DNA of 64,000 nt from Antedon bifida (Eukaryota > Echinodermata > Crinoidea > Comatulida > Antedonidae), in the NCBI GenBank assembly GCA_963402885.1, contig OY727103.1:18564085-18628084 (forward strand), read 5' to 3'. Positions 3,550-63,983 of the stretch are shown here, in pieces (positions within the stretch are counted from its first letter, which is position 1; each line of letters opens with the position of its first letter). A program made the position numbers and the translations under genes. The notes below the pieces were generated by a model. That model saw nothing but the letters and a program-made list of their open reading frames with translations, was not told the DNA's origin and ran no database searches.

Positions 3550-4912
3550 AGAGTACCTGTATTTCAGCACCTAGTACCATTTACACCTGTAGTTCAGCCA
3601 CAGGTACCATTTACACCTGTAATTCAGCACCAAATACCATTTACACCTGTAGTTCAGATTCAAATACCATTTACACCTGCAATTCAGCACCAAGTACCAT
3701 TTACACCTGTAGCGCCTTGAACACCATAAATGTTCAGAATTATGATGATTAAATGTATCTATATCTATATACTATCACTAGAGGCCACCACCATAACTTA
3801 AGGAGCGAGTCGGCCTCGAATGCCTATATTGTTGACTCTTTAGGTATGGTAAACGGTGCCCATGCCATAACCGCTTGGCCATTTGACTTGCTAATTAACT
3901 TTGCAGCTATTCAATACAATTTCAAGAATCATTTCATATTTTTTGATGGATGTTCATGGAATCAAAATACTGAGCACTTGAGCACTTTGTGGATATGTGT
4001 GCTCTATAAATCTTATTATCTCATCTTAGTTCAGCACCAAATACCATTTACACCTGTAGTTCAGCACAAAATACCATTTACACCTGTAGTTCAGCACTAA
4101 GTAGCATTTCCATCTATAGTTCAGCACCAAGTACCATTTACACCTGCAGTTCATCCCAAGTACCATTAATACCTGCAATTCAGCACCAAGTACCATTTAC
4201 ACCTGCAGTTCATCCCAAGTACCATTAATACCTGCAATTCAGCACCAAGTACCATTTACACCTGCAGTTCATCCCAAGTACCATTAATACCTGCAATTCA
4301 GCACCAAGTACCATTTACACCTATAGTTCAGCACCAAGTACCATTTACACCTGTAGTTCAGCACCAGGTACCATTTACACCTGCAGTTTAGCACCAAGTA
4401 CCATTTACACCTGTAGTTCAGCACTGTATACCATTTACACCTGCAGTTTAGCACCAAGTACCATTTACACCTATAGTTCAGCACCAAGTACCATTTATTT
4501 ACACCTGCAATTCAGCACCAAGTACCATTTACACCTGTAGCGCCTTGAGCACTTTGTGGATATGTGCGCTCTATAAATCTTATTATCTCATCTTAGTTTA
4601 GCACAAAATACCATTTACACCTGTAGTTCAGCACCAAATACCATTTACACCTGTAGTTCAGCACTAAGTAGCATTTCCATCTATAGTTCAGCACCAAGTA
4701 CCATTTACACCTGCAGTTCATCCCAAGTACCATTAATACCTGCAATTCAGCACCAAGTACCATTTACACCTGTAGTTCAGCACTGTATACCATTTACACC
4801 TGCAGTTTAGCACCAAGTACCATTTACACCTGTAGTTCAGCACTGTATACCATTTACACCTGCAGTTTTTCACTGCATACCACTTACACCTGTAGTTCAG
4901 CACGGGTTAACA
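3550..4912. repeat. 30-bp minisatellite array
   Basis: Tandem units of the type ttcagcaccaagtaccattt followed by acacctgtag, about 30 bp, at 3560-3715 and 4028-4905, with higher-order reuse: a block containing gcgccttgagcactttgtgg recurs at 3975 and 4540. Because the period is divisible by three it gives a meaningless periodic frame with a ten-residue repeat. Confidence 0.93.
3730..3975. repeat. Duplicated block, copy 2
   Basis: Second copy of 2630-2870, inserted between two stretches of the 30-bp minisatellite. It differs by a few substitutions and a short indel near its right end. Confidence 0.85.
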
Positions 4913-8579: not shown

Positions 8580-8745
8580 CTAGTTTTTGTATTCATCATA
8601 AATATGTTCCATATCCTGCTCTGTGGCATTGTCAGCAGGCAACTGGGAGTCATCATAATATACACTGTTAATGTGTGTACTTATTGCTGGTATGACAACA
8701 TTTTTAGGAACTATGTTCGTATTCGTATTATCCATTCTTCGGCAC
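8580..8745 (-). CDS. Receptor exon 23: cytoplasmic tail with paired tyrosines, stop TAG
   Basis: 166 nt; acceptor ttgtttacttag, entered in phase 2 (one base, G), which completes the AG left by the TM exon to give Arg. This creates a basic stop-transfer sequence CRCRR directly after the helix. The tail carries [10 protein letters not shown] and, at the C-terminus, HIYDEYKN before TAG at 8582-8580: acidic-flanked tyrosines typical of kinase substrates, including a terminal Y-x-N. No consensus ITAM or ITIM. Frame, splice phase and charge pattern all agree, so I am confident although the exon is short. With the two-codon alternative in exon 8 and uncounted tiny exons aside, this is the last coding exon. 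Confidence 0.87.
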
Positions 8746-11700
8746 CTAAGTAAACAAAATGTATTGTTGTTCAGTTTAGGTTGGTATTAGGGACGACATT
8801 ACAAAACACGACGGGAAGCCACATGACGGTGTTCATGAATAATTTATGCATGAGCTTTAACAAAGTGGGTGGAGCTTAGCGTGACATTCCAAGAAGTTGC
8901 CATTTTCCCATTTATGACTAGAAATAATGTATATATAACCTTAAATATACAATTCAAATTACACTTAAACATGGAATTTTCAAAACTCTAAATAATATTT
9001 GAAATTTTATTTAATTGTTTAAATAATAGTAATAAATTATATTGTTATTGGGTTAAAATGAATGTGTTAAAGCGGCATTTGAATGCGAGGCTCTAGCTAG
9101 GAAGGCCTATGCTGTATCACCAGAGCCAAGCGATTCAGAAGGATCCCGTGCCATGAGACAGGAGAGGGCTCAGAGAGATATACTGCCGGCCCTCGTCTTT
9201 GCGCAAAGATGCGTAACTAATAAAATGGCTATATTGACTGTATATGACTTTACGCTCTAGCGAACACAGGATATTCGTCGTCCTCCCCTAACCGTCGTGT
9301 TTCGTAAAGTTGTTGTTATGTCATAAAATTAATGAGTTATGTGGATCTCTCCTCAGTGTTTAAAAAACACAACATTGCAAAAAGCCAGTTGTTTAAGTTG
9401 ACTATAGAAAAATAGAGAAATGATAAGAGCAATAAATAAATAATAATAAATATAGTATCACCGGGCGGTTTAGAATTAATGTTCTTTGCCTGTTGTGTTT
9501 ATAATAAATATAGTAATATAAGTACAGTAAATTAATCTTCATTTTAAATGCAGGCAGTAGATGACAAAAAAAAAACATGATATATATCAAAAGATATATG
9601 AAGTAAATGAGCAAGTATAAAAATGAGGCAGTTCATCATGATTACAAAATCAAAAGGGTATTGGAAGTGTTTTTGCTTCTTAAACTAGTCATCTATTTGT
9701 AAAGTACTGATGAAGGAGACTCTGATTTCTAGTGGTGAATATGGATTGGACCAAAGGCCTGACTCTTAGATTGGTAGCCAAGCATCATAACCACCAAGCC
9801 ATAACTCCACTCCCAAAGTTGACAGAATATCAATAATCTTACAATTACGGTAACTACTGATTTTTAGTAGTGGAAAAACATGTGGGGCAGCAAAGATCTG
9901 GCACAATGATGTGGAACAATGATGTAGAGAAGCACAGATGTGGAATAACAATATGGAAAAACATGTGGAGCAGCAAACATGTGGAATAATGATGTGGAAA
10001 AACATGTGGGGCAGCAAAGATCTGGCACAATGATGTGGAACAATGATGTGGAGCAGCAAAGGTGTGGAATAACGATGTGGAAAAAATGTGGAGCAGCGAA
10101 GATTTGGAACAATGATGTGGAGCAGCAAAGATCTGGCACAATGATCTGGCACAATGATGTGGAGCAGCAAAAATGTAAAATAATGATGTGGAAAAATATG
10201 TGGAGAAGCAAAGATCTGGCAAAATGATGTAGAGCAATGTTATGGAACAACAATGTGAAGCAGCAAAGATGTGGAACAATGACGTGGAGCAGCAAAGATG
10301 TGGAACAATGACGTGGAGCAGCAAAGATGTGGAACAATGATGTGGAACAACAATGTGGAGCAGCAAAGATGTGAAACAACTATGTGGAGCAGCAAAGATG
10401 TGGAACAATGATGTGGAGCAGCAAAGATGTGGAACAATGATGTGGAACAATGATGTAAAACAACAAAGACAAGGAACAATGATGTGAAATAATGATGTGG
10501 AAGGACGATGTGGAGCAACAAAGCTAGAGCGATGGAATCAAATCTTGTTATATATGTAATTAAATCAATTATTTTAAAAAAAATCTGAAAAAACAATAGA
10601 TCAACTAGTACTGTATGTAAATGTGAAGTATTTTTAAACCACTGAACAAAATGCGATGACCAGAAAAACATTTTCAATGGTGTAAGTATGTAAGTAAATC
10701 ACTTAAAAACCTATGAAAGCATGACAATTAAATATGGAGCAAACAGCAATTTATTATGTAGCAATTTAAGATAATGAAAATTAGAATGTACATTGCAAAA
10801 TAATCATATTTAAAAATCCTTTATTAGAGTAATAATTATATTGAATGTAATTTTACAAAATAAATATGCAAAGAATCAATGAATAACACCTGCAATAAAT
10901 GACAAGAGCTGTAGATATCATCAAGATGACACAAGCAAGAATTATTATTCCTATCAAGTACTCTGGTAAAGATGAAGTCCCTTTAAAAAAAAGGAAAAAA
11001 AAGTGTTTAAAATCTCAGTATTCTGACATACTGTATATACATCCTGTTGTCATAGCTTAAGCAAATCGTTAAGGTTTGTATTACTGTATGGGGTGGAAGA
11101 AATTGTTCTGATTCAACTTTAAGAAATATTTAAACAAGTTTAACTATTCTCTATGCTTACTTACGCTGGCTAAATTATGATTCACTAATGAACTACATAG
11201 GACAACATAATATAAAGAGTAAAATAGAATTAGAAACTTTTATTTGCCGAGGGTAGGGGGTGAGGGTTTGAGTTGCATTCTATTCTTAAAAAAAGGGTAA
11301 TTAAATAAATGTACAGTATGACTTACTCTTAACAATCAGAACTGTAAATGTACAGATTCCTTTATTATCAGCACTATCAATAACAAAACAAGTAACATCA
11401 GTTGAACCAGTTTTAAATGATGAACCAGAAAGTGGATTACAGGTAGCTGACAGACCAATTTCAGCATTGTCAGTGACTGAAGGGTTATGCCAGGTCACTG
11501 TAGATTGGTCTGTCACTGTATCTTCTTCAATATTTCCCGGGCAGGTCACAACGGGAGAACCAATATCTAAAAGAAATGCTCATCATTGTGGAATATGATG
11601 TTCTTGTTGGAATATTCATGTTCGTGAAGAAAAAATAATTTAATTTATTTTGTGTTATTGTTTTACTTGTTGCAGTGCATACAAGTTAAAGGAGTGCATA

Positions 11701-14700
11701 GGGCAGATGGTGTGTCTTTCGGGTTGGAACTGCTGATGCTAATGCGTATGTTCAATATCAGGCGATTCCTTGTATCTCTCACTGAGAATCTTATGCATCC
11801 TTTTTAATATAACAAAGTAAGTGAAAACATTCCATGTATAATTCCGATAAGCAGACAGTGTTTTTCTTCTCGAGTATTGAATGAAAAAATGTTGTTAGTT
11901 ATTACCTACTGGGCAGAAACCAATGAATTATACTGTATGTGATTTTTTATTAGAATGGGCTCAAGTTAATGCCACTGTTGACATGAAAAACAGAGGCATA
12001 ATTTGAATCTATGACACTGAGATTCCTCAGGATGTTAACTCATGCCCTCTATTTGAATTCATTATTTAATATTGTCTGAAGGTTACAAAACATCTTTCAA
12101 TGTTTATTGCATTAAATTTACTGAAGAAAATTGACTATATTAAATATAAAATACAATTACCATTAATAGTAACTGTTAATACACAGCTTCCAGTATTACC
12201 AGCAGAATCCGTAGCAGAACAAGTAACAACAGTAGAACTTATATGAAAAGGTGAACCAGAAGGTGGATTACAAATAGCTGACAGATCACTATCAATATTG
12301 TCAGTGACAGAGGGATCATCCCAGGTCATCATAACTTGGTCAGTGGTTGAATATTCTTCAATGTTTCCTGGACAGGTCACAATGGGGGTATCAATATCTG
12401 TAAGAAATAGTTAAGAAATGTCCTTTTATTAAAAACACATATTGTGTATGCCTTGGGTTAAACACAACAAGCAAGATACTGTAATGATTTTGGGGGAGAA
12501 AAGATAGAGGGCGGCAGATGAGCAGGGAGTTGAAAAGGAGGAGAAGCAGAGAGCAGACGTATAAATAATAGTAGAGATTTAAAGAGATTGAAAAACAAAG
12601 TGTCAAAGAGAAAACTAAAGTGGAGTAATAAAAAGAGAGAATTATAGAAACAGTAAGTAGTAAGTGTAATTTATTTCGTGATTTCTTGTTACAAAAAGAG
12701 TGAGAAAGTTACAGGTTAGCCCGAGGCTACGCTCGCTGTTTTGTATTGGAGGTTACACCATTGTGTTGGTGTACGTTGCTGTGGAGGTTACACCATTGTT
12801 GGTGGCTACGTTGCTGTTAGAGGTTACACCATTGTTGGTGGTGTACGTTGCTGTGGGAGGTTACGCCGTTGTTGGTGTACGTTGCTGCGGAGGTTACACC
12901 ATTGTTGGTGGTTACGTGCTGTGGAGGTTACACCATTGTTGGTGGTTACGTTGCTGTGGAGGTTACACCATTGTTGGTGGTTACGTTGCTGTGGAGGTTA
13001 CACCATTGTTGGTGGTTACGTGCTGTGGAGGTTACGCCATTGTTGGTGGTTACGTGCTGTGGAGGTTACGCAAATTGTTGGTGGTTAAGTGCTGTGGAGG
13101 TTACACCATTGTTGGTGGTTACGTTGCTGTGGAGGTTACACCATTGTTGGTGGTTACGTTGCTGTGGAGGTTACACCATTGTTGGTGGTTACGTGCTGTG
13201 GAGGTTACGCCATTGTTGGTGGTTACGTGCTGTGGAGGTTACACCATTGTTGGTGGTTGCGTTGCTGTGGAGGTTACACCATTGTTGGTGGTTACGTGCT
13301 GTGGAGGTTACGCCATTGTTGGTGGTTACGTTGCTGTGGAGGTTACACCATTGTTGGTGGTTACGTTGCTGTGGAGGTTACACCATTGTTGGTGGTTACG
13401 TGCTGTGGAGGTTACGCCATTGTTGGTGGTTACGTGCTGTGGAGGTTACGCCATTGTTGGTGGTTACGTGCTGTGGAGGTTACACCATTGTTGGTGGTTA
13501 CGTTGCTGTGGAGGTTACACCATTGTTGGTGGTTACGCTACTATTGGAGGTTACGTCATTTGTTGGTGGTTACGCTACTATTGGAGGTTACGTCATTACT
13601 GGTGGTTACGCTGTTGTTTCAAGTCCGGCGTAATAGCAGAACTAATCTAATTAATTATTATAATCGGTTGTTACTAATAATTTGGAATCAAAGAAGAATA
13701 AAGGAGGTCACTCCAAAAATTGTAATTGATTTGTTTGTTTCATTCGAGTGTACCGTGGTACCGCAGACCCTTCCCCAAAGGGAACGAACCCGAGAACGGA
13801 TTTTCGTTACAATACTCAGGTTCACTCTTGTAATGTCCTTCAACAAATAGTTGGGCTCCTTGCTTATTAAATAAAATGAAAATTATTATTAAAATTATGA
13901 ATTAAATGTCTATACCAAATTCAATGTTTTAAAAGCAATTTAATTCCTGATGGAATGGTTACTCTCCTGTGGCTGTTAAGAAAGAAGTATTTTCCTTTGG
14001 AAATGTAATTGGAATGTGTGTAGATGTGTAGAGATGAGTTTCTAGTAATATTATTCTAATTATGCAGCGGTTCCAGTGGGAGTTTAGTAACTTGTAAAGT
14101 ACACAGAAAAATGATTGATATAGGTTAACATTCCATGTTTGGCTAAAAAGTGCAGCCAAAATAAATATGGATGTGGAATGGATGGAGAATGGTAAGATCT
14201 TGACACTTTTTTTTATTGTCTGAAGATTATAAAAATTCCTTTTCAATGTTTAGAATTCGTTGACAGTCTGATGATAACTATGTAAAAAATACAATCACAT
14301 TACCAATAATAGTAACTGTAAATACACAGCTTCCTGTATTACCAGCAGTGTCCATAGCAGAACAAGTAACATTAGTTGAACCAATATTAAATGATGAACC
14401 AGAAGGTGGGTTACAAGTAACTGACAGACCAGTATCAACATTGTCAGTGACAGAAGGGCCAGTCCAGGTCACTGTTGCTTGGTCAGTGGCTGAATATTCT
14501 TCAATATTTCCTGAGCAGGTCACAATGGGGGCATAAGAATCTAGAAAATAGGAAAGGAAAATAGGAAAATAAAAGCTTATCTTTCAGTATTAAATGAAAT
14601 ATTTTTAATTAGAAATTGTAATAGAAAATATCAGGTATATATATTTTATTACTTTGGTATAGAGTGTAGTGTATGGATATTTCTTTATGCTTTGATGTTA

Positions 14701-17700
14701 CAGTAGGTCAAAAAAAATATCTAGTGTACGTCTTAACTTCTACACTACAAGCATGTTTTAATATATGGCATTCTTGCAAGTTGCATATATATCGTCAATA
14801 TATTAAATATAGCACAACTGATATTTCCACTAGATTGGATGCTTAGAAAGCAAATTGAATCCCTGACCTAATAGTTGCTATTAACCCAAAATCCAGTAAA
14901 TTTGATCTAAAATACAGTGAAGTATGTTGAAAGGAAAATGTGCTAGCAGCTGAGGAATAGTGTAATTGTTAAAAACATGCTATCTCAAAGAACATACAGT
15001 ATATCTATCAGTAAGATCTTAAACCATGTTGTAATATTGTTTGAAAATTAGGTAGGTAAACTAATATTTGCTAATGGTTGTGGGCCCAGCTCCATTTTAT
15101 CAATAAAATTTGGGCCACTAGATTCCACCTTGTACCACAGAGAGACAATAATATAAAAAATAAATTCATATTACCATTAACAGTAACTGTAAATACACAG
15201 CTTCCTGTATTACCAGCAGTATCTGTAGCAGAACAAGTAACATCAGTTGAACCAATATTAAATGATGAACCAGAAGGTGGAGAACAAGTAGCTGATAAAC
15301 AAGTATTAACATTGTCAGTGACTGAGGGGTCATTCCAGGTCACTATAGTTTGGTCAGTGGCTGAATTTTCTTCAATGTTTCGTGGGCAGGTTACAGTGGG
15401 GGCATCAACATCTATATAAAAAAAAAGTTAAAAGATTTACAAATAACTTTTTAAAAATTACACAAACTATTGTTGTTATACTGTGACAATGTTAGTACCC
15501 CAACACAAACTTTGCTTAATTAGGTAAATATTATAAATGTGTGATCAAAACAAGAATTTTGGAAAAGTTTTTTAATGTAATCCTTGATCTTTGCTATCCC
15601 ATAATATCAGTTGTCTGGGAAGTCAATAAAAAATGCTCTAAAACACTGATGTAAAACTGGAAGAAAAATCTGTATGCAACTGACAAAGGCTACTAATATC
15701 AACTGGACAGATATTTCCCTTTCGGTAATGAAAGGGTTAAAGTAAGTGTAACATGCTATTCTAAAGAAACTACTATATGTCTGAAAAAACATCTTCGCAA
15801 TGTTTGTATAGTATTAGACAGACAATGATGATATAAAAATAGGCAATAACTTTATTATTAATATTATTCTATTACCATTTACTGTAACTGTAAATATACA
15901 ACTCCCTCTATTACCAGCAGTATCCCTAGCAGAACAAACAACATTAGTTGAACCAATATTAAATGATGAACCAGAAGGTGGAGTACAAGTAGCTGATATG
16001 CGAGTATCAATATTGTCAGTGACAGAGGGGTCATTCCAGGTCACAGTTGTTCTGTCATTGACTAAATCTTCTTCAATGGTTCCTGGGCAAGTAACAATGG
16101 GGGAACCAATATCTAAAAAAAAAAAAAATGGTTTTACAAATTAACAAATAAAAAAAAATAGTATAATCCACTTTTTTGACATTCACTTTACTAAGCTACT
16201 CTTAAAAATATAATTCATGAACAACAAGCTCAGTTGATATAGGTTCAAGGTATTTTAGATACTCAACTTTAGTACTATAAAATATCACAATAAACTTAAA
16301 CCTCAACTTAATAAAGTGTAAGTGTAATAACTAGTATGAGGACAGGATGGTAGATTACATAGGAAATATGTCAAGATGACGACATATATACCTCAATAAC
16401 TTCTTCTGAGACAGCAACAATTTGAATAAAACTGTGTTACAATAATTCTCAATTTTTGACATGAAAAAAACCATACCTTGATTATTTTTTAATACTGTCA
16501 GAAGACTACAAAACTTCTTTGCAATGTTTTTTTATAATTGAATGCAAGGCAGAAGGATAACCACTGATGTAAACAAATGGTATTACCATTGATATTAACT
16601 GTAAATACACATCTTCTCGTATTACCAGCAGTATCCGTAGCAGAACAAGTAATATCAGTTGACCCAGCATTAAATGATGAACCAGAAGGTGAAGTACAAG
16701 TAGCTGACAGACCAGTATCAACATTGTCGGTGACTGAGGGGTCATTCCAGGTCACTGTAGCTTGGTCAGTGGCTGAATTTTCTTCAATGTTTCCTGGGCA
16801 GATCACAATAGGAGAACCAAGATCTACAAGAAATAGTTGACAGATTTTTAAAAAGAACAAAAATTACATAAATATATATTTGTTAGATACAAGTACAGTA
16901 CTTCAAAACATTATTTGGGTTCTCTATTTTGTTACATATTATGAATGTGTTTGGGAAATCGGTAAATAATGTCTGAAAGAAGTTTGGCTGCAGCCTTTAA
17001 GGGTACACAGTACATCAACTTAGCAGAAGTATGACATTTTGCAACATGCTGTCTCAAAGAACCTATGTTTGTTGGTAAGATTTTTAAACCATGCTGCAAT
17101 AATTGTCTCACAAGCAAATTATTTCTTTGCAATACTTATAATCCTTCATCTGGCAAACGATGACTATAATTATAACAAATTAAATGCTATTACCATTAAC
17201 AGTAACTGTAAATACACAGCTTCCTGTATTACCAGCAGTATCTGTAGCAGAACAAGTAACATTAGTTGAACCAATATTAAATGATGAACCAGAAGGTGGA
17301 GAACAAGTAGCTGAAAGACAAGTATCACCCTTATCAGTCACTGGTGGGTTATTCCAAGTCACTCTAGCTTGGTCAGTGACTGAATCTTCTTCAATGCTTC
17401 CTTGGCAAGTCACAATGGGGGCATCAATATCTATAAGAAAAAGTTAAAAGATAAATAAAACAAAATTACAGATATAATTCATAATTATCAGATATTTCCT
17501 TCTAAGAGGCGTAGTATAATAATGAGATATTACAAAGGTGTTTTGTACAAGAATGAATCAAAACTTACTAATGACAATAACTGTAAATACACAGCTTCCT
17601 GTATTACCAGCAGAATCCACAGCCAAACAAGTAACTTTACTTGAACCAGCATTAAATGATGAACCAGAAGGTGGAGTACAAGTAGCTGACAGACCAGTAT

Positions 17701-53700: not shown

Positions 53701-56700
53701 AGGCTGAACGAACCAGAAACTGGGAATTACATCTCCAAACTGTTTACGACATGTTGCCATACTTTTCTGCCTCTGGTCATGCTCTTTATGCCAAATGTGC
53801 ATAAGTATACCTGCAAAAAACGCTCAGTCTACCAGAAACCCATCAGACTGCAGAGGAATATGCTGCAGGAATTACGAGCCACCAGACTTGCGTGAAAATT
53901 GATTGACGCTATTAGTGAGCAAGATGTTTACAATACAATACAATAAGAAACAAATAAATACCAACGTGACTTTATTGAACTATGATTATTTTGATAACTC
54001 CATGTATAACTTTAAACGAGATACAAACTTTTATTCAGCTTTTTACACAGATGTCTATTTCACCAAATATCCATCTGATATTCATAAACATTTTAAACAT
54101 GCTTGGATCACCTCTAAAAAGAAGTCTTACTACTTCTTTCTACTTGAAAAGGTGTGAACAAATTTAGTCTATATTAATAAAACCAGCAGATAATAGGATT
54201 TATGTACTTATGCAAATGAATATGCAAATCAACCAGTCCTAAATGATGTTGGCCTTTTTCAAATGAAAAGCCCATGGGCCAATACCCAACTCTGCACCTT
54301 TAAAACATTCAAATAGGTTGTCTACAAGTCAAAATATGCCAAAATATTGAATTTTGACGGCCATTTTGGATTTATGCAAATTAGACGTCTTTCCCCCATT
54401 GGAATGTTTTGGGACTTTTAGTATGGTGTTCTGGGACCTCAAAAAAATGCATTGCGGTGAAAAAAATTCTGTGGCAATTTGTTCCAAGTTAAAAGTTAAA
54501 ATGACTGGACTAAATGGGCAAGACGTGAAGTACCTGAAATTAGAAGAACAGCTTTTTTCTAAAACGTGTATTTTATTAAGATTTAAGAATGTTGGGCCCA
54601 TACAATGTAATACAGTAACTAATAAATCGGAAAATAAGGAAACAGTAGATATTGCGTAAAATATAAGCAGGTAAAAAGGAAGAAAGACAATAAAGTATGT
54701 CAATGTCCTTAGATATTTTTAATTCAATTTCTTTTATATGGTTTTTACATTTAGCTCTTGGTCAATTAAAACACCTAGACATTTGGTTTGCTTAACATGG
54801 GGAATTATTTGATCACCAATCAGAATTTTATGAGACTCGTCGGTCAGTTTTTGGTGACGAAATTCAAACAACATAAAGTTGCATTTGTTTAGATTTATTT
54901 AAACTTTATTCACATTAAAGTAATTATTGATATTAATTAATTCTTGGTTAAAAGTATGAAAAATTAACTCAAAATTAAGATAAAAGTCGTATCATCTGCA
55001 TAGAGATAAAAAGTAAGGATATCTGAGGCGTTTGGTAAATCATTGATTTTTTATTTTATGTCTTTAGGCAATGTGGCCAAGGATTTACCAATAGTAAATT
55101 TATCACTGTCCTATCAGATAGGTGGTAATCTCCCTGATACAGGGGCTATTTTGTGAACCAGTTGACCGGTGTATCCCCCTACTCTTCTCGAATAATGAAC
55201 TAGGTTCTTTAAAGTGCACATATTCATTCATTCATTCATATTGTTATCACTAGTATTTCTAAATTTGAGATTGGTATCAATTACTCGCTTTCTCGATTTT
55301 TTTGAACTGATATTAAAAACAGGAAGATGATCTGTAGCATCATTAATAATGATACCACTGACAGACGATTTAAGATCATTTGTGAAAATGTTATCAATTA
55401 ACGTAGTGGAATGTTCAGTGATGGGTGTCGGTCTATGATATAGCGAAATGAGAGAATTATTGAAAAGACAATGAACAAAATCATTGATATTGTTATCATT
55501 ATCATAGATTCAAATTTGAGTTAATCAATGTTAAAATCACCAAGGAGAATTATTTGTTTATTTTCTTTTGTTATGTTTTTAATAAGGAATTCAAAATTCT
55601 GTGTAAAAAAAGGGATAGAGATATCATAAGGTCTATATATAGTTCCGATTATTATATTTTTTTTCCGGTTTTTACTTCAATAAATTGAGATTGAGAAAAT
55701 AGAGTAAAGGCGTTAATTCATCTCTAATTGTATAATGACACTTATTATTGATAAACATGTTGATACCTCCACATTTATATGAACGGGGTTTGATAACTAG
55801 TGAATAATTTGGTAAATGAATAAGTGGACTAGCAAAGTCCATCCAAGTTTCCGTTACCGAAATGACATCAAAGTTGAAATTAAGAGATTGAATACACTTT
55901 GAAATAGATTCAAAGTTTCTAGCATTAAAATGTATACAAGAGAAACAATTTCCAAAGTCATTATTATTGAATTTCTAGTGACTTCATTTGTTAAGTAGTA
56001 ATTAGAAAGATTTTAATCATTTTTTGTCCGGGTCGTCAAATTGACTAGCAGTTGATGAGGGTTTAAATAGATGGTTTGATAATCGATTTAAATTCTCATT
56101 GTTACTAAAAATTGGAGCTCTATAAGAATCAAATTAGGAGTTTAGAAAAATTGGAGTATAGTAAGTAACGTATTTGAAAGTAAATTGTAATTTAAAACCG
56201 CCCAAAAGGCTCTATGTATCAATATGAATCATACCAATTGACAAAAAAAATTGCATTAAAGAGTTTTTAATTAATATGATCAACATGATCTCCCCACGAG
56301 AGTGAATTGTCAAAAACAACATTTCCAACTTTTCTGTTGCTGCTGACTTTTTAAATGTAATATTTTTTGTTTCAACTTTACCTGAACAAATAACACCAGC
56401 ATCCTGATAATGACCACAACTGTGTATCTTAATTCCACGATGACGACAGCTTGTGATAGAGATTTCATTTCCTAAACACTGGACACCACTAAGCATAATT
56501 TGACCAGTGCCTTGGCCAAAATGAGCTTGTCTTGGTGCTTCAATTGCTGGTCCTAGTCCTAATTGTCGACACACAACTTGGGCATCATTTATGTCCCAGC
56601 GATAATCACATATTGTACCCCATTCTGTACCGATGTATACTTCAACTCGTCCCTCAAAGCTATTGCCACCATCCACAAGTCTAATATCTAATTCATAAGC

Positions 56701-58201
56701 AAAATACAAACAATTAAAAACAAACTATTCAGGCACAATCCAAATCCAACAAAAGAATTAATTTCCACTTTCCGTTGCTCATCCAATGGAAAAGTCTATG
56801 AGGGTTCAATGTTTAAACGATTTTAGATTCTCGCCCTTTTGATTAGTTGACCCGAATCAACACACTATGGAAGAATTGTGTCGCATGTGCCGTGAAGTCA
56901 TGTTGTCTCTGTGAACTGTCCAACAAACAGGAAAATAATGTATTGTTTTTCATAATTTTTTCTTTATTATAATATTGATACAAAATATTAACAGGCAATG
57001 TATGATTTGTTTGAAAAATATTAACTTTTAATGTTGCATTGCATATTTACCAACCTGAGAGATTTTAAATGATTTTTCATATTTTTAGTTGAGCAGCATA
57101 TTAGTCAGTTTACAAAATTCCAAAACAGTCAGATATATAGCTTTCGCGTTGATAAAGCTTCTTAAAGATGTATTGTCCCCCAAAAACATGAAAAAATGAA
57201 GATTAATAAAATCAGATTTTGAATAGGCAATTTCAGTTTTAATAAAGATATTCACTTCTGTAGAAAAAAAAATCATTAAAAATAATTATTTCACTTATAA
57301 AAAGACAAAAGAAATGGTTCATTTCAACCAAAAACCATTGTCTTCCAGACAATTTAGGTATATTATGCTTTAAATTACATTTTTTTGGTGGAAAATGTTT
57401 TTTTTTTGGTTCAAGTTTTTGGTCATAGTGAATAACTATTATGTGATATTAAAATGGCATATTAAAAAAAAAAAAAAATTAAAAAATTATTTTTTAGGGG
57501 GACAATACATCTTTAATGATTGTCCTCTGGGTATAGCTGCCTGCGTGGCGCGAAAATATGCTTACTGCTATCCTAGGATTAATTGGGTTGTCCAGAATTT
57601 ACAATACAAGTTCTTCAAAATCATGCAGCAAAAGATGTAACTAACAAATCTCTAACTGACTCTAGTATACTCAAGCTCTACAAAGCTTTTTGGATGAACT
57701 TAGATAGATTGTACATAAATGAAGCTATTACTATGGTTTAAAATTATGAATAAACTTGCATCTCCATATTTATTAGATAAGTTCAATATCAGAAACAATA
57801 ACTATAGAACTAAGCCGAATTTAATACCAAAACAAACAAACAGCTTTTGACTGTTTATACTAAACAAACTACAAAAAAAGTAGCTTATAGAGGTGCCAAT
57901 TGTGCATGTTACGATTTGTACTGTAGACAAAAAGACAGACAAAAGATACAGTGCGTTTTCATGAATTCCGAGGATTTATCTTATACAAACTAAATTGTTA
58001 GTGTTGTTATTGCCTGAAGTGATATCCGGGAACATTAGGTCTTGTTTATAATATCAATTATAATTGTTATTAAAGATATGATTATAAAATAGATGCATTG
58101 ATGGTCCCTACTAGTTCTAATTACTTACTTTGAGATGAACATGTAGAACATTGTAGAATAAACAATATTATTATTATAACAACACAATTTTTAACCAACA
58201 T
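8580..58201 (-). CDS. Multidomain type I receptor: SP-SRCR x4-EGF-F-lectin-like-HYR x12-TM-Tyr tail (24 exons)
   Basis: Gene model assembled by hand from splice sites. Order in the protein: signal peptide (residues 1 to about 24), SRCR1-4 (25-431), EGF (432-471), F-type-lectin/F5-8C-like domain (472-614), twelve HYR modules (615-1562), one transmembrane helix (about 1570-1593) and a 54-residue exon-encoded tail. Every extracellular intron is phase 1 with GT donors and AG acceptors; the TM/tail intron is phase 2. The exon lengths add to 4944 nt, exactly 1648 codons with stop. SRCR, lectin-like and HYR domains are known in recognition and adhesion proteins, so a cell-surface recognition or adhesion receptor is likely (inference). 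Introns carry many transposons; the intron between SRCR2 and SRCR3 is about 15 kb. Because the exons are symmetrical, an extra 3n exon could have been missed without breaking frame. I do not recognise a named orthologue. Confidence 0.88.
8802..9304. mobile_element. Candidate mariner-type MITE in the last intron
   Basis: 503 bp bounded by inverted ends caaaacacgacgg (8802) and ccgtcgtgtttcg (ending 9304), 12 of 13 positions matching, each flanked by TA. No coding capacity. It lies 57 bp upstream (transcript sense) of the receptor tail exon. Confidence 0.6.
9755..9815 (-). repeat. tRNA-like SINE fragment
   Basis: The reverse strand reads gttatggcttggtggttatg followed by atgcttggctacca, matching the A-box part of the SINE at 42990-43240. 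Only the 5' part is present. Confidence 0.6.
9878..10525. repeat. 29-bp minisatellite array
   Basis: Irregular tandem array built from acgtggagcagcaaagatgt plus ggaacaatg, with shorter variants. Since the dominant period is not a multiple of three, all three minus-strand frames stay open and look like proteins; they are artefacts. Lies in the intron between the TM and tail exons. Confidence 0.92.
10890..10980 (-). CDS. Receptor exon 22: transmembrane segment
   Basis: 91 nt. Acceptor after an excellent pyrimidine tract (cctttttttttaaag), entered in phase 1. Encodes RTSSLPEY and then an uncharged stretch [18 protein letters not shown] continuing VIYC, enough for one helix. The donor CAG|GTGTTA leaves phase 2. 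If the donor were skipped, translation would stop after eleven more residues, giving a nearly tail-less protein; the matching phase-2 tail exon at 8745 makes splicing far more likely. Confidence 0.9.
11327..11566 (-). CDS. Receptor exon 21: HYR module 12 (membrane-proximal)
   Basis: 240 nt, phase 1-1 (acceptor tcttttag, donor A|GTAAGT), one codon longer than its neighbours. Standard module with [38 protein letters not shown] and CTFTV; the AGN turn is ADN. The exon joins the transmembrane exon in phase 1. Confidence 0.94.
12161..12397 (-). CDS. Receptor exon 20: HYR module 11
   Basis: 237 nt, phase 1-1 (acceptor tttcttacag, donor G|GTAATT). Reads [61 protein letters not shown]. Four cysteines. 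Confidence 0.94.
12725..13625. repeat. 34/35-bp minisatellite array
   Basis: About 26 units of tgctgtggaggttacaccat plus tgttggtggttacg, alternating between 34 bp (gtgctg) and 35 bp (gttgctg) versions, with occasional ttacgcc variants. Overlapping long plus-strand frames are a by-product of the mixed unit length. Intron between HYR modules 10 and 11. Confidence 0.94.
14304..14540 (-). CDS. Receptor exon 19: HYR module 10
   Basis: 237 nt, phase 1-1 (acceptor attttctag, donor G|GTAATG). Four cysteines; [49 protein letters not shown] and [13 protein letters not shown]. The intron downstream in the transcript contains the 34/35-bp minisatellite (12725-13625). Confidence 0.94.
15175..15411 (-). 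CDS. Receptor exon 18: HYR module 9
   Basis: 237 nt, phase 1-1 (acceptor ttatatag, donor G|GTAATA). Standard module with the same extra cysteine as module 6 ([14 protein letters not shown]). From [11 protein letters not shown] to CVFTVTVNG it is nearly identical to module 6, so the two are probably duplicates separated by other modules. Confidence 0.94.
15876..16112 (-). CDS. Receptor exon 17: HYR module 8
   Basis: 237 nt, phase 1-1, donor G|GTAATA; the acceptor follows a long T-rich tract (an A-run on the plus strand). Standard four-cysteine module: [60 protein letters not shown]. Confidence 0.94.
16587..16823 (-). CDS. Receptor exon 16: HYR module 7
   Basis: 237 nt, phase 1-1 (acceptor atttcttgtag, donor G|GTAATA). 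Reads [52 protein letters not shown] and [13 protein letters not shown]. The glycine-serine before the last cysteine is arginine-arginine. Four cysteines. Confidence 0.94.
17194..17430 (-). CDS. Receptor exon 15: HYR module 6
   Basis: 237 nt, phase 1-1 (acceptor tttcttatag, donor G|GTAATA). Standard module except for an additional fifth cysteine in [14 protein letters not shown], shared only with module 9. It starts [10 protein letters not shown]. The odd cysteine number leaves one potentially unpaired thiol. Confidence 0.94.
17569..17805 (-). CDS. Receptor exon 14: HYR module 5
   Basis: 237 nt, phase 1-1 (acceptor aaaatatag, donor A|GTAAGT). Standard module: [56 protein letters not shown]. 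First of the tightly packed series of near-identical exons (modules 5 to 12). Confidence 0.94.
18179..18415 (-). CDS. Receptor exon 13: HYR module 4
   Basis: 237 nt, phase 1-1 (acceptor ttgcttctaag, donor A|GTAAGT). Core features are [34 protein letters not shown]. The usual DTAGNTG turn is expanded to [12 protein letters not shown]. Closest to module 5 in its I-V-I linker ending. Confidence 0.92.
18620..18870. repeat. Dispersed repeat, copy 1
   Basis: Same-orientation similarity to 51850-52140: tatattaatg-ttactaaatt, ggataaacactaaaaa, gtctcagcg and ccatggccggatctacgaa. Copy 2 has an internal segment absent here. Confidence 0.7.
19070..20010. repeat. Two diverged tandem copies of a roughly 590-bp block
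   Basis: 19072-19630 and 19668-20000 share, in the same order, ctagaccacaat-taattac, aaaccattga-ataaaa, atatccagtattgctttcat, aaaatcaatgg and gtgcgcttttattatact. The second copy has a deletion. Confidence 0.75.
20095..20462. repeat. GGGATT/AATCCC repeat region
   Basis: Repeated words such as ccgggatttgcgtaaaatcc and ccgggattcccg, with a larger unit starting cgggatt and ending ggatcccacttgaatt (seen at 20080, 20330 and 20450). Reverse-palindromic content (aatcccgg/ccgggatt) could form hairpins. No coding function. Confidence 0.85.
20616..20852 (-). CDS. Receptor exon 12: HYR module 3
   Basis: 237 nt, phase 1-1 (acceptor tcttcttgtag, donor T|GTAAGT). Keeps [24 protein letters not shown] and CTFTV but has lost the VTDN motif (IQNYDDSYL). 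Sits between a long TE-filled intron and a 2.2-kb intron with degenerate duplicated repeats. Confidence 0.92.
21395..22229 (+). pseudogene. Ty3/gypsy retroelement fragment: gag and pol start
   Basis: Degenerate gag-like sequence ([17 protein letters not shown]), then a broken zinc knuckle ([10 protein letters not shown], last Cys lost), then the segment preceding the protease ([19 protein letters not shown]). Frames are interrupted. The element breaks off where a minus-strand LINE begins and resumes near 25190. No LTRs recognised. Confidence 0.75.
22230..25189 (-). pseudogene. Degenerate LINE inserted in the gypsy element
   Basis: On the minus strand: APE-type endonuclease (24568-25182, with GTIYRPTSS and [10 protein letters not shown]), linker, RT start (23583-23912, [11 protein letters not shown]), RT core (22594-22836, [15 protein letters not shown]) and C-terminal part (22153-22479, [18 protein letters not shown]). 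Several frameshifts and stops. It is itself split by a TIR element at 22847-23585. Confidence 0.82.
22847..23585. mobile_element. Non-autonomous TIR element inside the LINE
   Basis: 739 bp with inverted ends agtcgcgtg.../...cacgcgact, splitting the LINE RT frame. Just inside both ends, in the same orientation, lies gcatagtgataccggaccga followed by a GACA/GACC tetranucleotide tract (22862-22920 and 23499-23560), an unusual direct subterminal repeat. No coding capacity. Confidence 0.7.
25190..26290 (+). pseudogene. Ty3/gypsy retroelement fragment: RT start and RNase H
   Basis: Continuation of the element at 21395: protease-RT linker, RT entry ([30 protein letters not shown]), then an internal deletion joining to an RNase H piece ([32 protein letters not shown]). 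Most of the RT palm and the integrase are missing, so it is dead. Confidence 0.8.
26300..27130. other. Intronic, no recognised feature
   Basis: AT-rich intron between HYR modules 2 and 3; I see no exon or repeat family here. Confidence 0.4.
27135..27768. mobile_element. MITE with TTAA flanks
   Basis: 634 bp. Left end TTAAAGcccccttccct, right end agggaaggggtCTTTAA; inverted ends agree over most of 17 positions, and the TTAA at both sides suits a piggyBac- or Kolobok-type target duplication. The interior holds the AGGCCTAG-rich block also found inverted at 5190-5600. Confidence 0.7.
27860..28090 (-). CDS. Receptor exon 11: HYR module 2
   Basis: 231 nt, phase 1-1 (acceptor cttttatag, donor T|GTAAGT). 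Two residues shorter than the standard 79-codon module. Shows [18 protein letters not shown], then [19 protein letters not shown] and CTFTV; the PPSGS loop is replaced by PSNTN. Followed in transcript direction by a 7.2-kb intron filled with nested retroelements. Confidence 0.93.
28100..28680. other. Intron between HYR modules 1 and 2
   Basis: AT-rich, nothing recognised beyond normal splice sites at its ends. Confidence 0.5.
28682..28921 (-). CDS. Receptor exon 10: HYR module 1
   Basis: 240 nt, phase 1-1 (acceptor ttttttctag, donor G|GTATGC). Divergent HYR repeat: [33 protein letters not shown], then [13 protein letters not shown]. Four cysteines as in the other modules, but the VTDN core is VMDD. 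Together with module 2 it is the most diverged member, consistent with being outside the recently amplified block. Confidence 0.93.
29335..29529 (-). CDS. Receptor exon 9: F-type-lectin-like domain, part 3
   Basis: 195 nt, phase 1-1 (acceptor gtttatttag, donor A|GTAAAT). Continues the fold with [31 protein letters not shown] and the typical end [10 protein letters not shown]. This matches the family C-terminal pattern C-x-GRYV...L-x-LCEV-x-V. The canonical fucose-binding arginines are not visible, so sugar binding is doubtful although the fold is clear. Confidence 0.9.
29906..29992 (-). CDS. Receptor exon 8: F-type-lectin-like domain, part 2
   Basis: 87 nt, phase 1-1, donor G|GTATGT. Encodes [19 protein letters not shown], the family's [14 protein letters not shown] strand. 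Two in-phase acceptors exist: tttcag before 29992 (chosen, stronger pyrimidine tract) and ataag before 29998, which would add two residues. The loop that follows the INV strand reads YTPYGYE in place of the RGDCC-type loop of fucose-binding members. Confidence 0.88.
30330..30950. repeat. Diverged tandem block, two copies
   Basis: 30330-30620 and 30660-30950 share the order tatgaaagt/ct...gttgtagat, tggcca, tttctttagtca/tttgtcatag, aaagagcgc/cagagcgc, and a closing attttgata segment. Old duplication in the intron splitting the lectin-like domain. Confidence 0.55.
31333..31479 (-). CDS. Receptor exon 7: F-type-lectin-like domain, part 1
   Basis: 147 nt, phase 1-1 (acceptor tcaatgtag, donor G|GTAAGT). 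Encodes the start of a fucolectin/F5-8 type C fold: [14 protein letters not shown], then [15 protein letters not shown] and SCSRT, which match the family pattern GKPA-x-QSS-x-Y...A-x-AVDGN...SCSHT. The usual Gly after AVD is Val here (AVDVN). Confidence 0.9.
31650..32050. repeat. Dispersed non-coding repeat, copy A
   Basis: Same-orientation match to 34280-34530 (tctatatataaatttac, ggtaaatcgcgcgtt, actcgatggtat, gttattgacaattaaaa, aaataggggtgttttc). The right part (31870-32050) also matches 59155-59360 (gtatacactg, cgcatttac, aacagct, catcataa-gttgaagaca). Confidence 0.8.
32202..32232. repeat. Perfect 14-bp-arm inverted repeat
   Basis: aaccatggaggtat, spacer ttt, atacctccatggtt. The ggttcaacc flank is also repeated. 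Confidence 0.9.
32666..32785 (-). CDS. Receptor exon 6: EGF-like domain
   Basis: 120 nt, phase 1-1 (acceptor aacttactag, donor G|GTAAAC). Encodes a single EGF module: [14 protein letters not shown], then FTCLC and SGYKGEIC, giving all six cysteines in the standard order. The calcium-binding D-x-(D/N)-E start is absent, so this is a non-calcium EGF. It forms a short spacer between the SRCR block and the lectin-like domain. Confidence 0.93.
33158..33463 (-). CDS. Receptor exon 5: SRCR domain 4
   Basis: 306 nt, phase 1-1 (acceptor aaaaattag, donor G|GTAAAG). Six-cysteine SRCR domain with intact CDDGWD and SGNETSIT, so the acidic cation site appears preserved. The loop [17 protein letters not shown] matches SRCR2 closely. 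Last SRCR domain before the EGF module. Confidence 0.94.
33668..33970 (-). CDS. Receptor exon 4: SRCR domain 3
   Basis: 303 nt, one codon shorter than the other three SRCR exons owing to a deletion in the loop before GHYKDAG. Phase 1-1; acceptor tttgctttag, donor G|GTAAAT. Reads [19 protein letters not shown] and ends VVCSG. The first aspartate of the CDDGWD motif is glycine (CGDGWD), while the later LGSEVSIT glutamate is kept. It lies only 204 bp upstream of the SRCR4 exon and is very similar to it, so the two are probably a recent duplication. Confidence 0.94.
34280..34480. repeat. Dispersed non-coding repeat, copy B
   Basis: Second copy of the 31650 family; it abuts a truncated hammerhead-like Penelope terminus on its left (34222-34277, ending cccttcat) and Penelope coding sequence on its right. 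Confidence 0.75.
34474..35710 (+). pseudogene. Penelope-like element: RT C-terminus and GIY-YIG endonuclease
   Basis: Plus strand, 5' truncated. The RT part shows the Penelope catalytic context [13 protein letters not shown], then [27 protein letters not shown] and the [13 protein letters not shown] block. After a frameshift comes [13 protein letters not shown] and a C-x(2-3)-C zinc-like GKSCKTCS, then in another frame the GIY-YIG domain ([27 protein letters not shown]). At least two frameshifts; inactive. Confidence 0.85.
36103..38690 (-). pseudogene. CR1/jockey-like LINE, 5'-truncated, frameshifted
   Basis: Minus strand. 38676-37675 encodes the end of the APE endonuclease ([35 protein letters not shown]) and linker; 37412-36279 encodes RT ([31 protein letters not shown]) and the C-terminal region ([13 protein letters not shown]). 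Frameshifts lie near 37675 and 37480. The catalytic FADD motif reads FADE. The 3' end carries a (TCTA)n tail at 36103-36120, typical of CR1-superfamily insertion. Confidence 0.87.
38901..39356 (+). repeat. Tandem 252-bp units with an embedded tRNA-Thr-like sequence
   Basis: Two direct copies (38901-39152, 39153-39356 and continuing after a LINE at 42033-42084). Each has a tRNA-like core: A-box tggtctagaggta, anticodon arm ccagg-ctagtga-tctgg (anticodon AGT), T-arm gtggg-ttcgagt-cccac, and partial acceptor pairing ctcgg/ccgag. The array starts and ends with the same 18-bp stretch, aactacaattacaatcct. Confidence 0.85.
39357..42032 (-). mobile_element. CR1/jockey-like LINE, 5'-truncated with a long intact frame
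   Basis: Inserted in the second 252-bp unit; a 5-bp repeat aaatt flanks both ends. A single minus-strand frame of 805 codons (42054-39637, starting in flanking DNA) covers the endonuclease end ([27 protein letters not shown]), linker, and complete [59 protein letters not shown] and intact catalytic FADDTSLFC. The uninterrupted frame indicates a young insertion. It lacks the first part of the endonuclease, so it is unlikely to be autonomous. Confidence 0.9.
42033..42102 (+). repeat. Right end of the tandem 252-bp array
   Basis: Completes unit 2 (acgtcagagtagggcaaaac ... ctccctgacgca) and begins a third unit that stops after aactacaattacaatcct. The array is flanked by atttaaat on both sides (38892-38899 and 42103-42110). 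Confidence 0.8.
42197..43808 (+). pseudogene. Broken ORF with a C-terminal CXC (tesmin/TSO1-like) cysteine motif, split by a SINE
   Basis: Plus-strand remnants in shifting frames. The first part has [30 protein letters not shown]; after a SINE insertion the second part (43239 on) has [39 protein letters not shown] and SPVGHGW, then [11 protein letters not shown], a stop, [19 protein letters not shown] and an acidic end. I recall similar ORFs as high-copy uncharacterised proteins in marine invertebrates; the clustered cysteines resemble CXC DNA-binding motifs. High copy number and origin in a transposon are inferences. Confidence 0.65.
42985..43238 (+). mobile_element. tRNA-derived SINE with poly(A) tail
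   Basis: Head with A-box tggcttggtggttatga and B-box ggttcaagtcc, unique body, and A-rich tail at 43220-43238. It interrupts the CXC ORF. A fragment of the same family lies inverted at 9755-9815. Confidence 0.8.
43810..45015. other. Intronic, no recognised feature
   Basis: AT-rich with a short (AT)n tract near 43848-43870; no exon or repeat family identified. Confidence 0.4.
45193..45228 (+). ncRNA. Hammerhead-ribozyme-like core, copy 1
   Basis: CTGATGA, then a stem-loop aggc-tagtgtt-gcc, then CGAAA, a 2-bp gc-tct-gc mini-stem and TA. This is the order of the hammerhead type I core (CUGAUGA, stem II, GAAA, minimal stem III, UH), as described for Penelope-like elements. I could not find a convincing stem I, so activity is uncertain. 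Confidence 0.5.
45331..45368 (-). ncRNA. Hammerhead-ribozyme-like core, copy 2 (mutated)
   Basis: The reverse strand has CTGATGA with stem II agggt-tagtgtt-gccc, but the essential GAAA reads AAAA, so this copy is probably inactive. Confidence 0.45.
45590..46000 (+). pseudogene. LINE endonuclease/linker fragment
   Basis: Plus-strand degenerate sequence encoding [28 protein letters not shown] (endonuclease end) and, after a stop, [18 protein letters not shown] (linker). Confidence 0.7.
46560..46760. repeat. Dispersed repeat with (GTTT)n core
   Basis: Contains ccgccaaggaggtatatgta, tgtctgtttgtttgtttgca and a caggattac segment. From memory, similar sequence occurs as a dispersed repeat in many animal genomes; family not named here. 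Confidence 0.4.
47190..47790 (+). pseudogene. LINE reverse transcriptase fragment
   Basis: Encodes [33 protein letters not shown], and after a stop and frameshift a degenerate [20 protein letters not shown] stretch; RT sequence seems to resume at 47645 (SDDTINI, catalytic aspartates visible) after a 140-bp foreign segment (47500-47640). Confidence 0.65.
48090..48400 (+). pseudogene. LINE linker fragment
   Basis: An open frame of 91 codons: [39 protein letters not shown]. This matches the region between endonuclease and RT in CR1/jockey-like LINEs. Confidence 0.65.
49020..49325 (-). CDS. Receptor exon 3: SRCR domain 2
   Basis: 306 nt, phase 1-1. The SRCR frame runs from [19 protein letters not shown] to VICAG, with an intact CDDGWD acidic pair and the downstream LGNETSIT glutamate, so the cation-binding trio looks complete. 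Six cysteines. The exon is immediately preceded in transcript direction by a LINE endonuclease remnant in the intron (49430-50580), which has not damaged the acceptor at 49326-49327. Confidence 0.94.
49430..50580 (+). pseudogene. LINE endonuclease and linker, degenerate
   Basis: Encodes the APE start [30 protein letters not shown], and further downstream [24 protein letters not shown] and a broken linker; several stops. Lies in opposite orientation to the receptor in the intron before SRCR2. Confidence 0.75.
50700..51015. repeat. Two tandem copies of a roughly 150-bp block
   Basis: 50740-50875 and 50895-51015 share cttataacttgactt, catagcaagttaaaaat, ctatgtttgtgatact/agtg, and tatattgttattaaagttg, each preceded by a ggccgcc/ggccacc-atttt segment. 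Confidence 0.85.
51020..51070 (-). repeat. Partial tRNA-like sequence
   Basis: The reverse strand shows gcatatcaagcagaaggtt-ccgggtttgaatctcgg, which has a B-box and T-arm but no recognisable 5' half. Probably a SINE remnant. Confidence 0.4.
51850..52140. repeat. Dispersed repeat, copy 2
   Basis: Fuller copy of the 18620-18870 repeat, same orientation, including an extra middle segment. Confidence 0.7.
52800..53141 (-). pseudogene. LINE 3' coding end
   Basis: The minus strand encodes a typical LINE C-terminus: [18 protein letters not shown], then in another frame [16 protein letters not shown] and [14 protein letters not shown] followed by stop. Belongs with 54514-55990. Confidence 0.7.
53142..54513. 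mobile_element. Foldback element with arms of about 430 bp
   Basis: Inverted arms, from ttagtccagtcatttta at the left end to its complement at the right, continuing through ttgcataaatccaaaatgg and cctattatctgctggtttta to aagcatgttta near 53580/54090. The left arm and centre carry a plus-strand protein fragment: [53 protein letters not shown]. It splits the minus-strand LINE. Confidence 0.8.
54514..55990 (-). pseudogene. LINE: endonuclease and partial RT
   Basis: Minus strand: endonuclease end ([39 protein letters not shown] near 55300-55450), then, after loss of most of RT, catalytic YADDTTF (about 54990) and [14 protein letters not shown] with [14 protein letters not shown]. 55095-55245 is a separate inserted sequence ending in (ATTC)n. 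Non-functional. Confidence 0.75.
56382..56687 (-). CDS. Receptor exon 2: SRCR domain 1
   Basis: 306 nt, phase 1 at both ends (acceptor after ...gaattag, donor G|GTAAAG). Translation shows the SRCR signature [47 protein letters not shown] and a closing VICSG. It has six cysteines (IC, VVC, VQC, TSC, SC, VIC). The usual CDDGWD segment reads CDYRWD, so one of the two aspartates that commonly form the SRCR cation site is missing. Most membrane-distal domain of the receptor. Confidence 0.93.
57162..57516. mobile_element. MITE with perfect TIRs and TTAA flanks
   Basis: 355 bp. Left end TTAAAGATGTATTGTCCCCC, right end its exact complement, so TTAA plus 16 further bases are perfectly inverted; the A/T-rich interior is also partly self-complementary. 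No coding capacity. In the receptor's first intron. Confidence 0.9.
58129..58201 (-). CDS. Receptor exon 1: start codon and signal peptide
   Basis: ATG lies at 58201-58199 with A at -3. The peptide begins MLVKNC, continues into an unbroken hydrophobic run [10 protein letters not shown] and ends with small/polar residues QCSTCSSQ, which is a classic signal peptide with a plausible cleavage site after the run. The exon ends A|GTAAGT at 58129, a near-ideal donor in phase 1, matching the phase-1 acceptor of the first SRCR exon. Secretory-pathway entry is inferred from this composition. No earlier in-window exon is needed. Confidence 0.85.
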
Positions 58202-58571
58202 GTTTTCTTTTTCGTTCTTTCCCATCAAACATGAACTGATCAAAAATGTAAAATTTGATTTCAGTTCAATTAATAATAATACTAGTTTCTTCCATTAACC
58301 AGGAAAGGTTTAATATTTCCTGGTATAAAATGGGTCCTCATATTTCTAGTTCCTGATATTATCGAAGACCTGTTCTTATTTCAAATAAAACATAAACTTA
58401 TAAAATGTGAAGCTTTTATCCTAAAAGTCCCAGTATAAACATCCTCATAATATCAATTACTAGATAGATTCCGGTTCCTGATTAAAGATATATTCTTACT
58501 TTCACATTAAAAGTAAATTCTTTACATATGGATGTCGTACTCCCTGCTCGCTAGTCTCACATTCAATGCAG

Positions 58572-63721: not shown

Positions 63722-63983
63722 TTAAGTGTTCAAACTTTCATAAATAGAACTCTGCAATTCAGAATAAGTATTTCTGGTGGGCGTCATGTAGTAGCTTTCA
63801 TATTCTGTATCCACTTGTTTGCTTGTTGTTGGCATGGTAACATTCTCATTGGTAATGCCAGTGGATGGCAAGTAGCTCTCATATTCTGTATCCACTTGTT
63901 TGCTTGTTGTTGGCATATTTACATAATACGCAGTCATGTTCATCGCAGAAATGTTTTGTTTGTTCTTTTGGGAGTAATACAGC
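63722..63983 (-). CDS. Last exon of a second receptor-like gene: tyrosine-motif cytoplasmic tail
   Basis: 262 nt on the minus strand, acceptor tttttcatag, entered in phase 2 with one base (G), exactly as in the other receptor's tail exon; stop TAA at 63724-63722. The 86 residues begin LYYSQKNKQN and contain AYYVNMP (a YxxM and YxN motif), a duplicated block MPTTSKQVDTEYESY at two positions, then NTYSEL and SIYESL. Ten or more tyrosines make this a signalling tail; SIYESL fits the ITIM pattern S-x-Y-x-x-L. The rest of the gene, including its TM exon, lies beyond the right edge. A membrane receptor is inferred from tail composition and shared splice phase, not seen directly. Confidence 0.75.

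Follow-up and report, generated by a model that had tools for sequence, protein, structure and literature searches.

Crinoids branch as sister to all other living echinoderms, and to our knowledge their recognition receptors have received little study. Hyalin and other matrix proteins contain HYR repeats. Scavenger receptors of the MEGF10/Draper type consist of a modular ectodomain with multiple EGF repeats and neither HYR nor F-type lectin domain (FTLD), one transmembrane (TM) helix, and a Tyr-bearing tail that is devoid of a kinase domain and carries YxxL/NPxY motifs. The gene described here, located on contig C16 of the Antedon bifida genome (gene A; the names A-H are labels of this analysis), resembles them in its modular ectodomain, single TM helix and Tyr-bearing tail, but YxxL/NPxY motifs are missing from the tail. 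According to the main text of a sea urchin survey, in which HYR and hyalin are absent, EGF-like (127) and F5/8 type C (36) domains are frequent in SRCR proteins, and the multi-SRCR (DMBT1-like) proteins share with gene A and its genome the tandem SRCRs and the large expansion (PMC10855680). However, in gene A the SRCRs form only a head, and the other family members read are without them. Mosaic proteins such as SpCRL, Drosophila furrowed and MsaFBP32 join an FTLD of ~140 residues to other domains, sometimes including a TM segment; the partners listed in the relevant sections of the review are CCP, C-type lectin, pentraxin, FA58C and factor I-MAC, with HYR and SRCR unnamed there (PMC5712786). 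In contrast to these mosaics, the FTLD of gene A has the His and the RxD of the fucose motif replaced. The sea urchin egg receptor for bindin EBR1_5 has 1243 aa, a TM segment, a SEA domain and seven HYR, and positive selection on it is confined to three of the HYR (PMC5521101, available text). Like gene A it is a HYR-repeat membrane protein, but it contains SEA, and its description in the same text states no SRCR, FTLD or EGF.

Among open-licence PMC papers, none was found that brings together an HYR domain, an F-type lectin and SRCR, and likewise none combining hyalin repeat, EGF, fucolectin and transmembrane; HYR is also absent from the available text of PMC13228809. The original prediction had raised the possibility of an undescribed class of immune or adhesion receptor. 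This has to be narrowed: gene A belongs to an EGF-FTLD-HYR-TM family of ~15 loci, and among the genes read it is set apart only by the four-SRCR head. SRCR accompanied by EGF-like or F5/8-type domains is already frequent in sea urchin (PMC10855680, main text).

Exon structure and domain content

The window is a stretch of 64,000 nucleotides (C16:18564085-18628084). Six-frame ORFs, splice sites and homology yield 23 consistent exons on its minus strand, from 58225 to 8580, in the order signal peptide (SP), SRCR1-4, EGF, three-exon FTLD, HYR1-12, TM and Tyr-rich tail (Table 1). The introns listed start with GT and end with AG, and the junctions are of phase 1 from the SP through the TM exon, with phase 2 at the TM-to-tail junction only. 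Joined from ATG 58225, the model reads in frame through 1657 aa and a stop. Counted from ATG 58201 it has 1649 aa, against the 1647 originally predicted for a complete gene from SP to Tyr-bearing tail, the discrepancy being one of small boundary differences. The claims of phase compatibility and an exact codon count were confirmed (all junctions are compatible and the frame is complete), as was the domain set, with four SRCR, EGF and 12 HYR recovered by Pfam and the lectin part by a PDB profile. Exon 1 resembles the 5' SP exons of genes B, C, D and E (E 7e-5 to 0.03), and phmmer returned no second SP-like exon within the window at E 5 or less. HYR4 (18416-18171) was detected with a profile built from the other HYRs, the remaining 11 having been found without one. 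The tail acceptor has the same phase in genes B, C, D, F and G, a comparison of acceptors and not of TM donors.

Table 1. Exons of gene A, with the related genes; positions refer to the window unless a contig is named
Feature	Position	Strand	Basis or remark
Exon 1, start codon and signal peptide (...CSSQ)	58129..58225	-	second ATG at 58201; donor AAA/GTAAGT (exon/intron)
SRCR 1	56382..56687	-	Pfam PF00530; phase 1-1; 6 Cys
SRCR 2	49020..49325	-	Pfam; phase
SRCR 3	33668..33970	-	Pfam; phase
SRCR 4	33158..33463	-	Pfam; phase; 372 bp intron to EGF exon
EGF-like domain	32666..32785	-	Pfam PF00008 5.1e-7
F-type lectin domain exon 1/3	31333..31479	-	profile; homologous exon in genes B, C, D
F-type lectin domain exon 2/3	29906..29998	-	profile
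F-type lectin domain exon 3/3	29335..29529	-	profile
HYR 1, positional type 1	28682..28921	-	Pfam; clade with B1, C1, D1, F1, support 0.94
HYR 2, positional type 2	27860..28090	-	Pfam; clade with C2, D2, support 0.95
HYR 3, positional type 3	20616..20852	-	Pfam; clade with B3, C3, D3, F3, G3, support 0.88
HYR 4, positional type 4, shortened N-terminus	18179..18415	-	Pfam 3.4e-7; clade with B4, C4, D4, F4, G4, support 0.90
HYR 5	17569..17805	-	Pfam; phase
HYR 6	17194..17430	-	Pfam; phase
HYR 7	16587..16823	-	Pfam
HYR 8	15876..16112	-	Pfam
HYR 9	15175..15411	-	Pfam
HYR 10	14304..14540	-	Pfam
HYR 11	12161..12397	-	Pfam
HYR 12	11327..11566	-	Pfam
Transmembrane helix exon	10890..10980	-	most hydrophobic 19-residue windows; like TM exon of gene B, E 2.9e-5
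Cytoplasmic tail, 4 Tyr, and stop codon	8580..8745	-	splice sites; phase
Tail exon of sister gene B	63725..63983	-	next gene upstream; other exons beyond window end
Gene B			SP-CUB-EGF-FTLD-5 HYR-TM-tail; CUB second half by eye
Gene C			SP-CUB-EGF-FTLD-6 HYR-TM-tail
Gene D			SP-EGF-FTLD-8 HYR-TM-tail
Gene E	C16 window-relative 140059-114880		SP-5 EGF-3 HYR-TM and tail-like ORF; five EGF exons alike
Gene F	C11 ~296-289 kb		FTLD, six HYR; no module detected between SP and EGF
Gene G	C11 ~312-299 kb		FTLD, six HYR; SP-like frame by eye
L032, shuffled relative	C16:19016396-19022600	+	SP-HYR-FTLD-3 EGF-HYR-TM; tail ends YSTIEPEYIELIM

Matches to PF00530 cover four stretches (whole-protein 3.2e-121, 396.8 bits against a cut-off of 26.1). 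The number of Cys, six in each of the four SRCRs, led to rejection of the eight-cysteine (group B) type. In the first 1018 residues of a preliminary model with 11 HYR, Pfam found the four SRCR stretches, one EGF and five HYR stretches; one and six further HYR stretches bring the total to 12, each passing E 0.1 alone (whole-protein scores 189.5, 30.9 and 278.6 bits, cut-off 21.7). No SEA domain, which together with HYR marks the EBR1 type, appeared in the Pfam scans of the model. The predicted layout is that of a type I single-pass protein, with an N-terminal SP and one C-proximal TM helix; the hydrophobicity maximum of the model, at residues 1576-1603, coincides with the TM exon.

The lectin region scores 28.6 bits with the Pfam family F5_F8_type_C_2 when taken alone (cut-off 27.8) and 24.7 bits, below the cut-off, inside the long model; the same family is matched in all six members compared (E up to 1). 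A profile of the six lectin domains matches the PDB entries for MsaFBP32 (3cqo, 2.9e-28) and 1k12 (1.3e-14). The fucose motif of F-type lectins is given as H-X24-R-X-D-X4-(R/K) in the relevant section of PMC5712786. It is absent from all six members, where Arg occupies the position of the His and YTPYG or a similar sequence that of RxD. A functional fucose-binding lectin was therefore rejected, and no such activity is claimed for the FTLD of the family. At the site of the cation motif, h2-D-G-x (where x is N, D or S), four of the six members have LAVDG, in two of them followed by N, gene A has LAVDV and gene D has LAVNG.

Tyr makes up 8.8% of the last 57 residues of the model, compared with 2.6% of the first 1580, and seven family tails contain 39 Tyr in 481 residues. 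Over these seven tails YxxPhi is not enriched (11 occurrences versus 7.5 in shuffles, P 0.098), nor is YxN (4, P 0.53 in the shuffle test), and the tail of gene A has no YxxPhi. An ITAM/ITIM tail was rejected, given that YxxPhi does not exceed the shuffles and is missing from gene A.

An exon scan over ~133 kb of the minus strand, using a codon score, splice sites and phase 1-1, served as a control. It gave 50 candidates, 48 of which overlap known family exons; one of the two others is a CUB exon (Pfam). The plus strand gave five, and the other eight phase combinations 4 to 28, mostly known exons cut at other sites. The codon score had been trained on the same exons, so the control partly favours them. 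Of the 60 training exons, which include an unrelated EGF located beyond the scanned region, ~11-12 were missed. Within the introns of gene A the phase 1-1 scan gave no nameable further domain, unassigned frames with at least four Cys having been viewed by eye.

The surrounding gene family

Sister genes B, C, D and E lie within 100 kb upstream of gene A and share its orientation. The common core of the family consists of EGF, FTLD, HYR1-4, TM and tail, and the number of membrane-proximal HYR varies. The slot between SP and EGF is also variable: nothing was detected there in D and F, B and C have their CUB exons in it, and only A, among the genes read, fills it with four SRCR, the heads being of phase 1-1. 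An FTLD was not detected in gene E, and the EGF exon was not found in gene G. A tree was built from 48 HYR repeats of eight genes. Its HYR1 sequences from A, B, C, D and F fall into one clade (0.936), adjacent to those of G and H (0.936), and HYR3 (0.875) and HYR4 (0.90) of six genes each form one clade. The fact that HYR1, HYR3 and HYR4 from six genes cluster according to their rank in the rod indicates that the EGF, lectin and HYR blocks belong to one gene. HYR5-12 of gene A are mostly expansions of the membrane-proximal type.

A genome search with the lectin domain, in which all 57 candidates were scored, gave 40 matching rows that were grouped in this analysis into ~15 FTLD loci, a number that may include pseudogenes. 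Five lie on C16 (18.59-19.02 of 19.35 Mb) and ten on C11 (0.19-0.38 of 28.2 Mb), near contig ends and thus presumably near chromosome ends. From 276 to 377 kb the C11 copies are spaced at 15.5-18 kb; this cluster was read over 280001-314000, which covers 2 of its ~10 loci. The genome-wide SRCR and HYR searches scored the best 150 of 409, 365 and 1376 candidates, and among the matches listed large HYR exon clusters were seen at C9:1.56-2.2 Mb and C14:10.33 Mb.

Fifteen pairwise comparisons among six genes, covering the exons for EGF (except in G), lectin and HYR1-4, give dN/dS values from 0.48 to 0.93. The genes of the family change fast and keep their frames. The longest DNA matches (best eight for each of four sister-gene pairs) are mostly of 200-280 bp, the size of an HYR exon. 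Genes A and B also share three matches of 360-500 bp, including two in inverted orientation, and A and D one of 362 bp; these longer matches are probably repeats. The tails of genes D and C (ORFs at C16 window-relative 102402 and 90662) close with ~36 residues that are almost the same in both (GRDNAGFESYMTSTGITDDATELQDLQDNTG...), which may reflect a recent duplication or gene conversion.

The SRCR head and the role of the protein

SRCR3 and SRCR4 are separated by an intron of 204 bp, and SRCR4 is joined to EGF by one of 372 bp. This intron of 372 bp, the sister genes and the finding of just one SP-like exon in the window led to rejection of a division into separate SRCR and lectin/HYR genes. 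Exon phases, the same short intron and the core order repeated in the sister genes support, at the level of sequence, a single predicted type I receptor with the full domain set, whose exons would all be joined in one mRNA. Counted against the single-gene reading are the SRCR1-2 and SRCR2-3 introns of 7 and 15 kb and the lack of SRCR in the other family members read. The TM exons of genes C and D, accepted by eye on a weak match to that of A (E 0.03-0.09), also count against it, as does HYR2, for which the only firm group comprises A, C and D (0.947), with G2 placed elsewhere.

The four SRCRs are mutually 73-83% identical and show 63-78% identity to three SRCRs at C9:9.41 Mb, from which they are set apart in an unrooted tree of the seven (support 0.989). 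Clusters with 69-75% identity to SRCR1 were found on C9, C12 and C15 (best 150 of 365 candidates), and no SRCR at C11:0.19-0.38 Mb is among the best 150 of each SRCR search. Further large SRCR exon clusters among the matches listed are located at C12:23.36-23.92 Mb, C9:25.4-25.9 Mb and C7:25.28-25.45 Mb. A fragment of gene E that resembled SRCR by eye (window-relative 120730) was rejected, as Pfam gives no SRCR match. Among the SRCR copies dN/dS is 0.51-0.96, which points to loose constraint, at dS 0.12-0.27. In a drift simulation with 0.06-0.12 substitutions per site, four stop-free SRCR copies had P 0.022-0.002; four such exons are unlikely under unconstrained drift from intact copies.

The dN/dS of 0.96 between SRCR3 and SRCR4, the slot between SP and EGF in which nothing was detected in D and F, and the absence of SRCR from the sister genes read would also suit four SRCR exons that intruded as a duplicated block into the first intron and are either left out by splicing or part of a different transcript, in which case the functional gene would be SP-EGF-FTLD-HYR12-TM, as in D and F. 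This is quite improbable, however: four copies at such dS have kept their frames open and free of stops and their phase 1 splice sites intact, the SRCRs take the slot that holds CUB in B and C, and the window was found to have one SP-like exon.

On balance, the evidence leans towards a single type I receptor gene with four SRCR, EGF, FTLD, 12 HYR, TM and Tyr tail, which belongs to a tandem family with swappable heads and has a role in surface recognition. Its product would be located at the surface, where the head (four SRCR and EGF) may bind microbial or cell-surface ligands and the rod of twelve Ig-like HYR repeats may act as a spacer holding the FTLD away from the membrane. Clustering could then allow a cytoplasmic kinase to phosphorylate the tail tyrosines, with recruitment of SH2 adaptors. 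This signalling step is weak for gene A, as its tail contains no YxxPhi and the motif is not enriched over the seven tails.

Two other roles would use the same architecture. Since EBR1_5 is an HYR membrane protein under positive selection (PMC5521101, available text), gamete or egg-surface recognition of the EBR1/EBR1_5 kind, in place of an immune function, is a serious rival. The dN/dS of 0.48-0.93 fits either role. The Pfam scans contain no SEA, however, and SRCR, CUB and FTLD heads are generally more typical of pattern or ligand recognition, making a gamete protein unlikely. An epithelial or matrix adhesion protein without recognition role, whose variable heads reflect neutral shuffling of phase 1-1 cassettes, would agree with the occurrence of HYR in hyalin and other matrix proteins, with tails in which YxxPhi is not enriched and with an FTLD lacking the fucose motif. 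However, a tandem multigene set, fast change and head replacement are generally unusual for structural adhesion proteins, and this role is somewhat unlikely as well.

For the family of recognition receptors that we favour, the cassettes are of phase 1-1, so duplication, exon shuffling or skipping alters the ectodomain without breaking the frame. It is tentatively proposed that tandem genes near chromosome ends, with a common core and tail type, frame-neutral head cassettes (none, CUB or four SRCR), a varying HYR rod and perhaps alternative splicing, form a crinoid system of diversification for immune, allogeneic or gamete recognition. Literature searches found no description of cassette-based diversification of that kind for echinoderms. 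If true, this would be a clear case of exon phase letting animals without adaptive immunity build receptor diversity.

Genome setting and repeats

The genome searched comprises 315.6 Mb in 27 contigs. Mitochondrial COX1 is found on contig C27, and translation with table 9, the echinoderm code, restores AAA = Asn, ATA = Ile and AGR = Ser at sites that we take to be conserved in animals. COX1 has 46.2% T and 13.5% C, with 64% T and 1.2% C at third positions. The whole mitogenome of the crinoid Florometra has 44.9% T and 12% C, termed a crinoid-specific bias (PMC7748595). The mitochondrial code supports an echinoderm, and with the T-rich, C-poor bias it makes a crinoid likely, a judgement of composition and code and not of phylogeny.

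An 807-codon frame with RVT_1 (3.7e-32) at 42063-39640 on the minus strand, within the SRCR2-SRCR3 intron, marks a LINE-like element and was also counted against the single-gene reading. A transposon-derived exon chain was rejected, as this frame sits in an intron. More RT-like frames, identified by eye, are at 38685-37678 and 37493-36282. The region 38900-39357 contains 1.8 copies of a 252-bp unit with 100% match and two Rfam tRNA matches 252 bp apart, and may be a repeat of tRNA origin next to the LINE-like element. The HYR10-HYR11 intron carries a minisatellite at 12747-13617 with 35/69-bp units (~25 copies of the 35-bp unit, 92% match). Downstream of gene A, 30-bp minisatellite arrays at 4027-4903 and 3555-3712 are open in several frames.
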